Origin: Nitrosomonas sp. | GTDB taxonomy: Bacteria > Pseudomonadota > Gammaproteobacteria > Burkholderiales > Nitrosomonadaceae | Length of the DNA stretch: 64,000 nt | Direction: 5' to 3' | Assembly: GCA_021582655.1 (NCBI GenBank) | Contig: CP091135.1 | Coordinates: forward strand, 702,549 to 766,548 | Shown here: positions 29,913-59,963 of the stretch, one piece after another | Position numbering within the stretch: the first letter of the stretch is position 1 | Layout: every line of letters begins with the position of its first letter | The notes under the pieces: model-generated | What the model was told of the DNA's origin: nothing | Database searches by the model: none | The model's input: the letters and a program-made list of their open reading frames with translations, nothing else | Position numbers and translations under genes: made by a program

Positions 29913-31128
29913 TGTAGTAGTTTAGATTTGATCAGACAGCAGGTCTTGCCAAAACTCGGTTTGATAGAGGCACGAATCTTTATCAACCAAGCACGAAAGC
30001 GCAAAGGAGTAATCCCATGCGCAGTGCTCAACAGAAAGTCATCAAACACAAGAACAAGATTGGTTTACTTAATCCGGCAGCCGAGCTTGGCAATGTATCC
30101 CGTGCCTGCAAGATGATGGGTTTTTCTCGAGATACTTTTATCGCTATCAAGCTGCCGCTGAAACAGGTGGTATTGAGGCTCTGATTGATGCGAATCGGCG
30201 CAAGCCCAACATCAAGAACCGTATTGAAGAAGCTTTGATCGCAGCGGTCACAGCCTTTGCTCCGAAGCAACTGACTTTGGGTCAGATTCGTGTTTCCAAC
30301 GAACTACGCAAACGCGGAATCTTTGCTTCTCCGTCCGGTGTTCGTGCAGTGTGGTTGCAGCAAAGTCCGGAGTCGTTCAAGAAGCGTCTATCAACTTTGG
30401 AGAGGCATATCGCCGAGACCGGAGCGAAGCGGAGCTGATCGAGGCACAGGTGCAGGCATTGGAGAAGAAACAGGACGATGATGTTGCTCATGGCGAGATC
30501 GATACCGCTCACCCTGGGTATCCCGATAGTCAGGATACCTTCTATGCCGGCACTCTTAAGGGCGTGGGACGGATTTATCAGCAGATCTTCGTCAACACTT
30601 ATTCCAAATGGGCGACCGCCAAGCCGTATCACCAAAACACCAATCACATCGGCTGATTTGCTCAATGACCGGGTACTATCGTTCTTTACTGAGCAAGGTA
30701 TGGGCGTCATCCGTATCCTGACCGATCGCGGTACCGAATAGTGCAAAAAACCGGGAAATCACGATAATCCGCTCTATCCGGCTACTTGCCGACATTGAAC
30801 ATTCCAAAACGAAAGCCAATCATCCACAAACCAACGGCATTTGCGAGCGTTTCCACAAACCATCTTACAGGAGTTCTACCAGGGGGCATTCCGGTGCAGG
30901 ATTTATCAGTCCATCGAAGCGTTACAACCCGATCCGGGTGACTGGATAACGTACGACAACAGCACGCACTCATCAGGGCAAGATGTGCGGCAGGCGCGCT
31001 CCGATGCAAACTTCAATTGACGGAAGGAAGGGATGGCACGATAAAATCACCGCTTTGAATGACTGAATTTGATCTGACAGGCACATCGTCTGATCGGGTA
31101 AATGTCAGATCGGGTCTGAATTATTACA
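29913..31128 (+). mobile_element. IS481-like insertion sequence (decayed)
   Basis: About 1216 bp. Its ends form imperfect inverted repeats: TGTAGTAGTTTAGATTTGAT at the left and, reverse-complemented, TGTAATAATTCAGACCCGAT at the right, 19 of the first 26 bases matching. A 7-bp direct repeat TCTTATT flanks it (29906-29912 and 31129-31135), as expected for target duplication. It carries one transposase gene broken by frameshifts. Confidence 0.85.
30017..31020 (+). pseudogene. IS481-family transposase, multiply frameshifted
   Basis: From the ATG at 30017 (MRSAQQKVIKHKNKIG) the reading continues through ELGNVSRACKMMGFSRDTF, then shifts frame near 30139 (a T run one base short), continues as IEALIDANRRKPNIKNRIEE, and shifts again near 30430 and 30640. 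DDE-domain pieces remain (DTYSKWATAK-like, VIRILTDRGTE, HPQTNGICERF). A stop follows LTDRGTE. The gene is clearly non-functional. Confidence 0.9.
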
Positions 31129-31188
31129 TCTTATTGATATGCCTTAATCGCTGTGTTCCATACGCTTCGCGCCTTTAAAATTAACGCA

Positions 31189-41420: not shown

Positions 41421-42230
41421 TTAATGCGACTCATGCGCCATAGCGATATACACAACCGTCAGCATCATGAATATGAATGCCTGAAGCGTCACCACCAGTA
41501 TATGAAAGATTGCCCAACCCGCACCTAAAATTGCCCCAAAAACCGTTCCAGAAATACCAGTTGCCGCCCACATACCTAAGAGTAGAAAAATAACTTCGCC
41601 TGCATAGATATTTCCGAACAAGCGCAACGAATGCGACAATGGCTTGGACACATATTCAATAAAATTGAATAACAGATTCAGTATCCACACGGCCGGGCTC
41701 TTACCGAACGGCGTACAAAACAACTCATGCAACCAGCCCCCCAACCCCTTAACTTTCACATTAAAGAACAACATCAAAATCCACACCGAAAGCGCTAAAG
41801 CAAATGTTGTATTGATATCAGTTGTAGGCACAATCTTCCAATTATGAAGCCCAAACACATTTTCTAAAATCTTAGCCGTAATATCAATAGGAAGAATATC
41901 CATCGTATTCATCATCAATATCCACACAAATACCGTTAACGCCATTGGCGCAACCAATGTATGGCGATTACCGTGAAATATGTTTTTTACTTCTTTATCG
42001 ATAAAATCAACAGCAAGCTCCACAAAGGCCTGAGTTTTCGAAGGCACACCGGAAGTTGCTTTACGCACCACCAGCCAAATAAAACCCAAACTCAACATAC
42101 CCAATATTACGGAGGTTACCAGTGTATCAACATGAAGAACCCAGAAAGAACCTTCTCTTATCTGAGCTGTTAAATATGTAAGATGATGATCTATATACGA
42201 TGATGGGGTTAGTTCTATTTCTGATGCCAT
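41421..42230 (-). CDS. atpB: ATP synthase F0 subunit a
   Basis: 269 aa membrane protein forming the proton half-channels. The essential Arg lies in [20 protein letters not shown]; the last helix [17 protein letters not shown] carries the conserved polar residues. Complete. Confidence 0.97.
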
Positions 42231-42697: not shown

Positions 42698-42701
42698 TTT
42701 A

Positions 42702-42857
42702 GGGAAACGCTGATTAATTCGGCCAGCGCACGGGATGAGGTGTAAGATGCATGGAATGCAAGGCCAATCACGATCGGGTCCTGCCAACAAGATAGCCAAG
42801 GAAGTGAAGCCATTGTCGCAACGAAACATTCGCTGACGCAATCAATTAATCAGTGTT
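42702..42857. mobile_element. MITE-like element copy B, upstream of the atp operon
   Basis: The left end GGGAAACGCTGATTAATTC (42702-42720) and right end ATTAATCAGTGTT (about 42845-42857) are inverted repeats of each other. The interior aligns with the 47431 copy (GATGAGGTGTAAGATGCATGG versus GATGAAGTACCAGATGCACG). About 156 bp, with no coding frame. It fills most of the gap between tyrS and atpI. Confidence 0.8.
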
Positions 42858-42985: not shown

Positions 42986-44188
42986 CTATTCTATTGAAAT
43001 TCTAGCAAATTTTCTTTTTCCGATCTGAATTACCACTTGCTCGCCTCGTCGCATTTTGAGTAATTTATCTTCAATTCGTTGATGATCAATCTTAACCGCG
43101 CCCTGCTCTATCATACGCAACGCTTCACTCGTACTCTCGGTCAAGCCGGTTTGTTTGAGCACCTGTACCAATGGAATTTCTGATTCAGAGATTTGGATAT
43201 GCTTTTCTGGAATTTGATCGGGTAGCCCTCCAAATTTGAACCGTGCCTCAAAATCCGAAAGCGCATTCACAGCTGCCTGCTTGCCATGAAAACGCCCGAC
43301 TATCTCCTGAGCAAGCTTTACTTTGATATCACGCGGATTTCGCCCGGTATCAACTTCATCACGCCACGTTTGTATAGTTTGCAATGACTCGAATGAAAGC
43401 AATTCCAAATATCGCCACATTAATTGATCCGATACCGACATCAATTTGCCAAAAATTTCTTTTGGCGCCTCTGCTATTCCGACATAGTTATTCATTGACT
43501 TCGACATTTTATTAACGCCATCCAAACCTTCGAGTAATGGCATGGTCAGGATACATTGTTGCGATTGCCCAAAAACTTTTTGCAACTCCCGCCCCATTAG
43601 TAGATTAAACTTTTGATCAGTACCGCCCAACTCAAGGTCGGCCTTGAGTTCCACTGAATCGTAGCCTTGTACCAGCGGATACAAAAATTCATGAATCGCA
43701 ATAGCCTGGTTGTTGCGATAACGTTTATTGAAATCATCCCTTTCCAACATCCGTGCAACAGTATGGGTCGCCGCAAGTTTAATTAAATCAGCGGCACTTA
43801 GTTTGTCCATCCAAGCCGAATTGAATACCACCTCGGTTTTCTCGGATCGCAAGATTTTAAAAACCTGATCAGTATAAGATATTGCATTTTCAGCCACTTG
43901 CTCGCGAGTCAATGGTGGACGAGTAGTATTTTTGCCGGTTGGATCGCCGATCATGCCGGTAAAATCTCCGATCAAAAATAAAATCTGATGCCCCATATCC
44001 TGCAATTGACGCAATTTGTTAAGCAATACAGTATGTCCCAAATGCAAATCAGGTGCCGTCGGATCAAAACCGGCCTTAACGCGCAGAGGTTTCCCGAAAA
44101 TAAGCTTACTTTCCAACTCTTTTTCAACCAATAGCTCATGACAACCGCGCTTTATAATTTCAAGATCAGATTTTATTAATTCACTCAC
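42986..44188 (-). CDS. tyrS: Tyrosyl-tRNA synthetase
   Basis: 400 aa class I synthetase. The HIGH-type motif is [13 protein letters not shown] near residue 48, the KMSKS motif is [12 protein letters not shown] near residue 230, and a C-terminal S4 RNA-binding domain ([17 protein letters not shown]) is present. This is the TyrRZ-like long form. Divergent from the M23 peptidase gene. Confidence 0.97.
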
Positions 44189-47392: not shown

Positions 47393-47430
47393 GGATATTC
47401 TGCAAATATGTTGATGAGATAATAGATTAA

Positions 47431-47574
47431 GGAAACACTGATTAATTCGATGAACACGATGAAGTACCAGATGCACGAAACACAGCGACCCACATCTACC
47501 AATAAAATAGGCGAAGAGGCGAGCTGCCTTCGCAATGAAGCGACGCTCGTGTAGCCAATTAATCAGCGTTTCTC
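47431..47574. mobile_element. MITE-like element copy C between bactofilin and erpA
   Basis: Ends GGAAACACTGATTAATTC (47431-47448) and AATTAATCAGCGTTTCTC (47557-47574) are near-perfect inverted repeats. About 144 bp. It separates bactofilin from erpA, and its right end contains the bactofilin stop codon. It is the best-preserved copy and serves as the reference for the others. Confidence 0.85.
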
Positions 47575-57095: not shown

Positions 57096-59963
57096 TTACA
57101 CATACTTCACCCCACTGCGTCGCATCCAATATTTCTCGAGTTCGATGAATAAAAACAACAGCAAACCAACCGCAACAATGCGTCCCCATGCCGCCGCGTC
57201 GAGTGCGACGGTGCCGAACAGTTGCTGCATCACCGACCAATAGGTGAACAGCAGTTGCAGTGCCAACAGCAGCGCTATCGCGAACAAGATGTAGCGATTA
57301 CCCAAGAGACCTTGGCGCGAACAGGCGGAAGCGATCAAATAACGGCAATTGAACAAGTAAAAAATTTCGCACATCACCAACGTGTTTACCACCACAGTAC
57401 GACCCGATTCAATACTGCCGCCCTGTACGATTTCCCAGAAATACAGGGAAAAGCCGCCGGCGATCATCAATAGTGCGACGATACCGATGCGCCAAACCAG
57501 GAATCCTGAAAGAATGGATGCGTTCGGATCATGGGGGAAACGGACCATGACATTGCTTTCAGGCCGTTCAAACGCCAGCGAAATGGCCAAAGTCACCGTG
57601 GTTACCATGTTCACCCATAAGATCTGTACCGGTGTGATCGGCAGTGCCATACCAAACAGAATGGCAAGCAGCAAAATCCCTGCCCCGCCGATGCTGGTGG
57701 GCAGAATATAAACCACGGTCTTACGGATGTTATCGTAAACGGCGCGACCTTCTTCCACCGCGTACGCGATCGAGGCGAAATTGTCGTCGGTCAACACCAT
57801 TTCCGCAGCTTCCTTGGCGACTTCCGTGCCGTTTCTTCCCATGGCCACACCAATATCGGCGCGTTTCAGCGCAGGAGCATCATTGACGCCATCGCCGGTC
57901 ATCGCAACAATCTCACCATTCTCTTGCAATGCTTTCACCAAGCGCAGCTTATGTTCCGGGTTGGCGCGCGCAAAAACATCGACATCCGCCACGAGCTTAC
58001 GCAATTGTGCAGCATCCATGCCATCCATTTCCACGCCCGTCACGACTTGACGTCCATCACCGATGCCGATAATCGCACCGATCGAAGCGGCAGTGACACG
58101 ATGATCACCGGTGATCATTTTGACGCGGATACCGGCCGTGCGGCACTGTTTAATGGCAGTAACCGCTTCCTCACGCGGCGGATCGATGATGCCGACCATG
58201 CCCAGCAGCGAAAAACCCGCCGTGACATCGGCAAATGCCAAGGTTTGTTGCTTAGGGGCGCACTGGCTAATCGGTTGCACGAGCGAATCGCCTGGTTGCG
58301 CAGTACTCGCTTCCTTATCCATCTCATGGATAGGTCTTGGTCGCTGTGTTCCGTGCGTCTCGCACTTCATCTCATTCGCCGAATTAATCAACGCTTCCTT
58401 AGCAGCGCACACTCGCACCGCAATGGCAAGAATTCGTTGCCCTGTCGCACTGATCTGTTGGATTTTTCCGTGCCAGAAATCCGGCTGAATGGGGCGATCC
58501 TCCCCCTGGCTGCGTTGATAATCACACATGGCAAGCACTTCTTCCGGAGCACCTTTCACATAGATTAGCCTATGCCCGGCAGGATCACGATGCAGCGTCG
58601 CCATAAAGCGATGCTGCGACTCGAAAGGAATAACATCGAGTCGCGGCAGCATCTCATGTTCCCAATCCGAATCCAATGACGCTTTCCCGGCCAGCGTCAC
58701 CAATGCCGCTTCCGTCGGGTCCCCCTGTATCGACCATACGCCATCCTGCAACCGCAACACGGCATCATTACACAATAATCCGGCCTTGCACAACGCCAGC
58801 AAATCGGCGTGATCCGCGATCTTAATTTCCTGTCCGTGCTGGTAAAACCCGCCTTTGGGGACATAGCCGGTGCCACCGACCTGTATCACCGGCTGACCGG
58901 CGACAATCAGATTCTGCACCGTCATTTCATTGCGCGTCAGCGTCCCGGTCTTATCCGTGCAAATGACGGTTACCGCTCCCAATGTCTCCACCGCGGGTAG
59001 CCTGGATACGATGGCATTGCGCCGGGCCATGTTCTGCACGCCGAGCGCAAGCGTAATCGTCATGATCGCGGGCAAACCTTCCGGGATCGCGGAGATCGCT
59101 ATGCTGACTGCAGCCATGAAAATCTCATTAACCGGGTAATCGTGCCGCCACAAACCGTACCCGAAAATACCGGTAGCCAACAACACGATAATCAACGTCA
59201 ACCAGCGGGAAAAAACCGCCATTTGCCGCAGCAGCGGCGAAGTCAGTCTGTCGACATGCACGATCATTTCGCTGATCCGACCAATCTCGGTATACCGGCC
59301 GGTGGCGACAACAACGCCGCTACCCTGCCCATAAACCACCAGCGTGCTTGAGTACGCCATGCAAAAGCGGTCGCCGATCGTAGCAGTCGTGTCGACAGCG
59401 TTTACCGATTTGTCGACGGCCTCCGATTCCCCCGTCAACGCCGCCTCTTCAATGCGCAAATTCTTGCTACTGAGTAACCGCAAATCGGCAGGCACCTTGT
59501 CGCCGGATTGCAATAAGACGATATCGCCTGGAACCAATTGCACCGAGAAAACCGGCCGCCGCTGCCCATCGCGTATCACCATCGCCGTCGACGACAACAA
59601 TTTTCTGATCGCAGCCAACGCTTTTTCCGCTTTGCCTTCCTGAATAAAGCCGATCAAGGCATTGATGATCACCACGCCGAGGATAACCGCACTATCGACC
59701 CAACGACCCAATGCGGCAGTGATTGCAGCTGCCGCCAGCAGCATGTAGATCAATATGTTATGGAACTGCAATAAAAACCGTATGACAGGACTTACCCCCT
59801 TGCCCGGCATCAATCGATTCTCGCCGCAGCGCATCAACCGCCGGGTAACCTCCGTTTCCGTTAAGCCATCCGGTTTGGCCGCCAACAAATGCATCACTTG
59901 CTCCGGCGTCATCGCGTGCCAAACCGGTGGCTCGCCGTGCGTTTGGGTCGGTTCAGTTGGCAT
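57096..59963 (-). CDS. P2-type cation-transporting ATPase with a MITE-encoded insertion
   Basis: 955 aa. Motifs of a SERCA/PMCA-like P2 ATPase are intact: TGES (178-181), SAIPEGLPA (membrane ion site, 291-299), the phosphorylated Asp in CTDKTGTLT (Asp337), KGAPEEVL, MITGDH and TGDGVNDAPALK, plus ten hydrophobic helices and the N-terminal regulatory segment. It probably exports Ca2+ or a related cation. Residues 522-571 are an in-frame insertion made by a MITE-like element, in the linker between the nucleotide-binding and phosphorylation domains. Confidence 0.93.
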   Translation of the reverse strand: MPTEPTQTHGEPPVWHAMTPEQVMHLLAAKPDGLTETEVTRRLMRCGENRLMPGKGVSPVIRFLLQFHNILIYMLLAAAAITAALGRWVDSAVILGVVIINALIGFIQEGKAEKALAAIRKLLSSTAMVIRDGQRRPVFSVQLVPGDIVLLQSGDKVPADLRLLSSKNLRIEEAALTGESEAVDKSVNAVDTTATIGDRFCMAYSSTLVVYGQGSGVVVATGRYTEIGRISEMIVHVDRLTSPLLRQMAVFSRWLTLIIVLLATGIFGYGLWRHDYPVNEIFMAAVSIAISAIPEGLPAIMTITLALGVQNMARRNAIVSRLPAVETLGAVTVICTDKTGTLTRNEMTVQNLIVAGQPVIQVGGTGYVPKGGFYQHGQEIKIADHADLLALCKAGLLCNDAVLRLQDGVWSIQGDPTEAALVTLAGKASLDSDWEHEMLPRLDVIPFESQHRFMATLHRDPAGHRLIYVKGAPEEVLAMCDYQRSQGEDRPIQPDFWHGKIQQISATGQRILAIAVRVCAAKEALINSANEMKCETHGTQRPRPIHEMDKEASTAQPGDSLVQPISQCAPKQQTLAFADVTAGFSLLGMVGIIDPPREEAVTAIKQCRTAGIRVKMITGDHRVTAASIGAIIGIGDGRQVVTGVEMDGMDAAQLRKLVADVDVFARANPEHKLRLVKALQENGEIVAMTGDGVNDAPALKRADIGVAMGRNGTEVAKEAAEMVLTDDNFASIAYAVEEGRAVYDNIRKTVVYILPTSIGGAGILLLAILFGMALPITPVQILWVNMVTTVTLAISLAFERPESNVMVRFPHDPNASILSGFLVWRIGIVALLMIAGGFSLYFWEIVQGGSIESGRTVVVNTLVMCEIFYLFNCRYLIASACSRQGLLGNRYILFAIALLLALQLLFTYWSVMQQLFGTVALDAAAWGRIVAVGLLLFLFIELEKYWMRRSGVKYV
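58253..58400. mobile_element. MITE-like element copy D inside the P-type ATPase gene
   Basis: The reverse complement starts AAGGAAGCGTTGATTAATTC, continues with ATGAAGTGCGAGACGCACGG and ends with GCTCGTGCAACCGATTAGCC, base for base like the copy at 47431. A CTAAG repeat flanks it (sense strand, both edges). It is read through in frame as about 50 codons; the TAG seen near the end of copy C in the same frame is CAA here. Confidence 0.85.

Follow-up and report, generated by a model that had tools for sequence, protein, structure and literature searches.

In-frame capture of small mobile elements by bacterial genes is a known kind of event. The sections of a 2024 review that deal with the subject (PMC10969869) present in-frame fusions of MITEs with genes as not unusual, with the Rickettsia palindromic elements (RPEs) as the extreme case and Rickettsia as the group in which such capture has been carried furthest in bacteria; nearly half of the RPEs of R. 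conorii lie in ORFs. In Coxiella burnetii, according to the relevant part of one report (PMC5896051), the functional annotated genes concerned carry QMITE1 and QMITE2 at their 3' ends, and some hypothetical ORFs have them mid-way and in frame. MITE-like repeats are also described in the available portion of PMC10907252, which concerns Thiohalocapsa rather than Nitrosomonas. A search of the literature on Nitrosomonas and MITEs, made on titles and with most subscription journals outside its coverage, gave, among the titles listed, none on the family studied here, and we have found neither this family nor this host described.

The element that we report, from a P-type ATPase gene of Nitrosomonas sp., resembles the RPEs as these are portrayed in the same review sections (PMC10969869): both are repeated, about 150 bp long, and add an in-frame extra peptide to unrelated genes. 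Recurrent in-frame insertion is seen here in an ATPase, an outer-membrane protein, a PolX-like protein and MnmE, all with empty sites in orthologues, and additionally in AMMECR1-domain, Zn_protease-domain and HExxH-type lipoprotein-like proteins. Unlike the RPEs, the Nitrosomonas MITE does not have a large share of its copies in ORFs (1/126 and 1/68 in two samples), and it shares its ends with an IS5-family element and shows 4-bp duplications. The ends are identical to those of the full-length element over 17-19 bp, which together with the 4-bp duplications and the lack of a transposase of its own likens the family to IS5-family MITEs; its interior, however, is unrelated to the IS of the relative G071, and its own genome has 0 matches to PF01609. 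Like QMITE1 and QMITE2, as far as the relevant part of that report goes (PMC5896051), the element is a MITE that changes ORFs, in some cases in frame. Its insertions, however, lie inside recognisable proteins or close to their N-termini rather than at the 3' ends of functional genes. Furthermore, ERIC and further small mobile sequences of enterobacteria are characterized as short mobile repeats with ORFs that occur inside genes (PMC2759123; PMC10969869); the hosts differ, and the likeness is drawn from these descriptions.

Results

The insertion in the ATPase gene

The window is the whole stretch of 64,000 nucleotides that was analysed (contig CP091135.1, positions 702,549 to 766,548). At 57096..59963 on the minus strand it carries an ORF for a type II (Ca-ATPase-like) P-type ATPase of 955 aa, with the Pfam domains E1-E2_ATPase, Cation_ATPase_N/C, Cation_ATPase and Hydrolase. 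The best NCBIfam match is TIGR01522 (PMR1-type) at 629 bits, under the family cut-off of 798. The initial annotation held that all catalytic motifs are intact, and indeed TGES, DKTGTLTRN and TGDGVNDAPALK are all found in the 955 stop-free codons.

A MITE-like element had been placed at 58253-58400, within a few bases of the boundaries determined here. The whole insertion (58256..58402, minus strand) consists of a 143-bp MITE core with imperfect terminal inverted repeats (58256..58398, minus), delimited from the family alignment and profile and from length and offsets, and a 4-bp CTAA (58399..58402, minus). This CTAA is the 5' copy, in coding orientation, of a target duplication whose 3' copy lies at 58252..58255 (minus); both were read from the sequence, and the family target is YTAR. 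The flanking repeats had been taken as CTAAG: a duplication is there, but its unit is the 4-bp CTAA, and the G merely adjoins it. Together, core and CTAA make 147 nt, or 49 codons (residues about 522-570), and the ATPase frame is intact. By chance the element has a length and a frame that suit the gene, which can therefore be read through it and should gain 49 residues in its product.

When the ATPase was searched against 61 genus genomes, the best matches split into two blocks, residues 1 to ~522 and ~570 to 953. The 29 best orthologous loci (L032-L060) were aligned, and all 29 have 0 residues opposite the insert, with flank identities of 64-73% on the N-terminal side and 70-80% on the C-terminal side. 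In the closest orthologue, L032, the stretch RVLPN-HQQTL stands in place of the RVCAAKEAL...QCAPKQQTL of the window protein. These 49 codons, the empty orthologues and a strong nucleotide similarity to other genomic copies bear out the earlier proposal of a MITE captured in frame that adds about 50 residues. That proposal had named as its counter-case distant orthologues carrying the segment with no nucleotide similarity to the copies; instead, the segment is lacking in 29/29 and similar genomic copies are many. No second strain with the ATPase insert was found, and none of the 29 aligned relatives shares it.

The insert ends about 25 residues N-terminal of the DPPR motif, which starts at residue 594. 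In alignments to two solved P-type ATPases the match breaks off at residue 508 or 502 and restarts at 584. Both observations, which place the insert by sequence alignment, agree with its assignment to the vicinity of the junction between the nucleotide-binding and phosphorylation domains. An AlphaFold model of the ATPase built with 7 sequences had a mean pLDDT of 41.7, too low to use. A reading of the insert as an RNA element was dropped, as 58200-58450 has no Rfam hit at E <= 1 and the consensus fold is weak (-2.25 kcal/mol).

In a tree of 30 sequences the window ATPase has the longest root-to-tip distance (0.386; median 0.240), and this may reflect some relaxation of selection. The insert-free sister L032 stands at 0.359; the terminal branches are 0.221 for the window ATPase and 0.194 for L032.

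The MITE family and its candidate mobiliser

The insert and its flanks were compared with the window's own genome, and among the best 40 of 117 candidates scored as places the top other copy had E = 8.8e-29. A family profile built from 26 copies gave at least 151 matches at E <= 0.01 in this 2.46-Mb genome, with the best 150 of 946 candidates scored. With the profile and stricter filters, 55/85 genus genomes have matches, several of them one to few and some weak, and 30 have none. At order level 48 of 300 genomes match, in 25/134 genera; in many of the genera other than Nitrosomonas the match covers only inner model positions. In several other genera (G126, G161 and G329, for example) it is mostly inner model positions ~14-143 that match, without these ends. 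The MITE core may predate the terminal repeats that it has now, or other elements may carry it. The window genome itself (G000), a single contig, is estimated to be only 83.48% complete; it may be reduced, or its assembly may be prone to error.

The window contains further members of the family. A second copy, copy C of the initial annotation, lies at 47428..47573 on the plus strand (profile match 120.9 bits) and is not among the copies in long open frames in our frame scan. A third copy is found at 42700..42857 (plus; 89.6 bits) between ORFs 41421-42230 and 42986-44188, which by eye are ATP synthase a-subunit-like and tyrosyl-tRNA synthetase-like, respectively. At 31127..31174 (minus) there is a probable fragment that matches model positions 35-82 at 29 bits.

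The family is short, multicopy, dispersed and transposase-free, the 143-bp core being too short for a transposase gene. Its columns show terminal inverted repeats, GGAAACGCTGATTAATT and its complement, which are imperfect in the ATPase copy. Own copies in which both ends are present number 89, and their target is YTAR-like. The 4-mers on the two sides agree exactly in 17 of these 89, against 5.95 on average and never more than 15 in 2,000 re-pairings; in relatives exact duplications occur in 40/66, against 10.2 on average and at most 21. The own copies are diverged, with a median of 81% to consensus (n=89). One relative's copy matches plasmid NZ_CP133084.1 of Nitrosomonas sp. sh817 (95.9% over 99% of the copy), at about the family position on contig 2 of G071.

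IS5-family elements insert at a 4-bp YTAR target. A PF01609 transposase search, which covers that domain, gave 0 matches in the window genome; matches in relatives numbered 12 in G028, 69 in G029 and 12 in G071. In G071 there are seven 1,195-bp elements (e.g. L192:1008-2202) with zero mismatches among all seven, and these identical copies suggest recent IS activity in that strain. The 4-bp flanks match at 7/7 copies and are YTAR at 6. Their transposase belongs to NF033581 (IS5 family; 336.6 bits against a cut-off of 140) and carries the Pfam domains DDE_Tnp_1 and DUF772. Each MITE end is identical to the right end of the IS, one over 19 bp and the other over 17 bp, and otherwise no similarity exceeds 9 bp. 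Because the ends match while the interiors are unrelated, we class the repeat as a MITE with IS5-family ends. The IS5-family element of G071, found in another species and not in the window genome, is thus the likely mobiliser as judged from its sequence. With no PF01609 match, more than 150 MITE matches and diverged copies, the family looks stranded in the window genome.

Reading frame and codon 43

In three relatives the core is 143 bp in 55/66 complete copies, a length that with the duplication makes 49 codons. The family consensus is open in the ATPase frame, and the remaining five frames have stops. An antisense frame that matched widely was rejected as the captured frame, since most of the matches listed have TGA in it. 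In the ATPase frame 29/89 own copies are open against 12.7 in shuffles, an excess that arises because the copies share ancestry. Some open frame is present in 50/89 own copies and in 56.7 after shuffling; one open frame is therefore unremarkable and weak evidence of design. Own copies that are both compatible in length and open in the ATPase frame number 18/89, the ATPase copy included. In the relatives only 9/55 of the 143-bp copies are open.

The initial annotation had noted a TAG in copy C where the coding copy has CAA, and concluded that the latter had lost a stop. The TAG is there at the equivalent codon, 43, and copy C is a real family member. TAG occupies codon 43 in 2/42 own copies of frame-compatible length, as located by codon number, a method that may misplace copies whose indels compensate one another; when the count runs from the right end, the first base of the codon is C in 62% of 89 own copies and T in 15%. 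In the relatives G044, G029 and G071 the 143-bp copies (n=55) have TAG in 26, CAG in 23 and CAA in 4. Because TAG is rare in the own genome and near-even with CAG/CAA in the three relatives, loss of a stop is not upheld, and a CAG-type ancestral state is the more likely in the window genome. A second stop site is codon 15, which is TAG in 8/55 of the relatives' 143-bp copies.

Selection on the inserted peptide

As reference we used the consensus of 25 gap-compatible copies, ATPase copy included. The ATPase copy differs from it by 23 changes, distributed 11/4/8 over the codon positions. Of its changed codons, 14 are non-synonymous and 5 synonymous (74% non-synonymous); random stop-free changes gave a mean of 75%, with 44% of simulations as low or lower, in a comparison that has little power as it concerns one copy. 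The 11 other 143-bp own copies show 167 non-synonymous to 60 synonymous changes (74%), and 6 changes to stop. By this codon comparison the ATPase insert appears to have drifted without visible protein-level selection. As 18/89 own copies are compatible and open, the intactness of the ATPase insert is therefore no strong sign of selection. The earlier suggestion of a mobile element "turned into protein", understood as recruitment, finds no support in changes that look like drift from the subfamily consensus, nor in the equal compatibility and openness of those 18 copies. The changes in the insert point to passive tolerance, not recruitment, as most likely.

Same-frame copies in other genes

The 126 near-full copies of the own genome were scanned for captures, defined by a recognisable gene and an open frame extending 40 codons or more to either side of the element. 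Six copies lie in open frames of this extent, and only the ATPase copy was judged real. By eye, the copies at 2135354 and 2446874 lie upstream of apparent signal-peptide starts, and those at 1470140, 2326712 and 2409398 give no recognisable protein.

Relatives were probed with the 49-aa peptide and, guided by open-frame length (~150 aa or more), 20 loci among the matches listed were examined. Five were accepted (L245, L246, L247, L252 and L254). In L249, L250 and L253 a plausible start codon lies downstream of the element; L248, L251 and L255 are ambiguous, with a hydrophobic stretch immediately after it; L257 and L259-L264 are short frames in which no protein was identified; L256 and L258 have no read-through frame above 140 aa.

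L245, in G071, encodes an outer-membrane protein with an Alginate_exp domain, and the 49 residues sit directly behind an apparent signal peptide. Without the insert, the sequence is TAKASSDPK in the orthologue L295 (98% identical) and IAKASNDPK in L296 (90%). The insert is missing at 19/20 non-self loci; the twentieth is a broken remnant. In L247, a PolX-like protein with DNA_pol_B and PHP domains, the element follows Met-Pro; 5/7 orthologue loci read MP-KHNADIA or MP-IHNADIA, and the other two gave no N-terminus. In L246, MnmE, the element follows M-K-A after a TTG start. The conserved start occurs without the element at 21/22 MnmE orthologue loci, one locus having no match to the pattern, and the copy of G023, 96% identical where aligned, reads LKANTDTIAAIAT. 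The element lies near the N-terminus of the AMMECR1-domain protein L254, where homology to the two best solved relatives starts at residue 53-57, right after it. In L252, a Zn_protease-domain protein with a lipoprotein-like signal, it precedes a hydrophobic stretch. Additionally, L356 of G029 is an ORF with a same-frame element, HExxH-type and lipoprotein-like by eye. Relatives thus hold six other same-frame genes, and empty-site orthologues were examined for three of them, the outer-membrane protein, the PolX-like protein and MnmE.

A sample of 80 loci in relatives yielded 68 elements (32 in G044, 27 in G029 and 9 in G071). The G044 and G029 loci came from listed end matches with at most 1 mismatch, those of G071 from 10 of the listed exact ends, and captures were counted where 110 or more codons are open beyond the element. 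By this measure one of the 68 sampled elements (L356) is a same-frame capture, and by the criteria of the own-genome scan one of the 126 near-full own copies; the G071 sample is biased downward because IS ends and the known capture L245 were left out, and G044 and G029 alone give 1/59. The ATPase and L245 are the only clearly interior captures. In the N-terminal cases translation might start at an ATG inside the element instead.

Discussion

We consider it very probable that a MITE moved by IS5-family machinery was captured in frame in the ATPase, was tolerated as a loop and has drifted neutrally since. The event would fall in an ancestor of the window's Nitrosomonas lineage that had already parted from the closest of the relatives sampled. 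An IS5-family transposase would have put the 143-bp MITE into a CTAA target shortly before the part coding for the DPPR hinge, duplicating the CTAA, in an orientation and phase that aligned the family's one consensus-open frame with the ATPase gene. Translation would then read through and add 49 mostly polar residues, which the pump would tolerate as a loop while the insert drifted neutrally. We infer that the IS5 family of G071 moved the ATPase copy. The predicted 955-aa protein with its insert is probably made and working, the loop would be surface-exposed, and the insert has presumably gained no function.

Other explanations have to be weighed against capture followed by neutral drift. That the segment is an ordinary native loop, like the repeat by chance, has a negligible probability given E values down to 8.8e-29 against other copies, the target duplication and the lack of the segment in 29/29 aligned orthologues. 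The inserted peptide might instead have been recruited for a function in the pump, such as regulation or partner binding, and be under selection, as frame, length and freedom from stops have been kept despite 23 differences from the subfamily consensus. This is very unlikely: its non-synonymous share (74%) compares with 75% in simulations and 74% (167/227) in the 11 other own copies, 18/89 own copies, its own included, are equally compatible and open, and no aligned relative shares the insertion. A pseudogene in progress, its frame surviving by chance, would suit a 49-residue insertion, which is large, and the longest root-to-tip distance of 30. We hold this to be quite unlikely in view of 955 stop-free codons with the key motifs there, both flanks 64-80% identical to orthologues and a branch little longer than the one leading to the insert-free sister.

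By analogy with the RPEs, the whole MITE family might be shaped for readability, being a multiple of three with its duplication and having one open frame, such that insertions in genes are survivable. Consistent with this are the sum 143 + 4 = 147 in 55/66 complete copies of three relatives, the consensus open in the ATPase frame (29/89 own copies against 12.7 shuffled) and the six more same-frame candidates in other genes. However, an open frame of any kind is found in 56.7/89 shuffles against 50 observed and the copies share ancestry, codon 43 is TAG in 26/55 of the relatives' 143-bp copies with only 9/55 open, and captures are rare; we think this explanation unlikely. The corresponding model, an improbable one, would be a "readable" RPE-like Nitrosomonas MITE whose active form is held at 147 nt and one open frame because gene insertions then survive, and which seeds 49-residue segments. 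If true, new segments would land in loops, protein N-termini and junctions behind signal peptides, and some may gain functions.

Capture with neutral drift, the reading we prefer, is of interest in that the chain is visible inside one genus: seven identical IS5-family copies, a MITE that shares their ends, sites that are empty in close relatives, and captured copies. Nitrosomonas, an ammonia oxidiser, is free-living, unlike Rickettsia, and the question of whether such insertions are tolerated or useful thereby becomes testable in a free-living group.

Finally, at L249, L250 and L253 and at 2446874-2447023 of the own genome, the element lies just upstream of apparent starts with an open frame into the gene. 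The genes behind these upstream copies are, by eye, universal stress protein-like, EAL-like, LolB-like and multihaem cytochrome-like, and here the element may serve as a leader as well.
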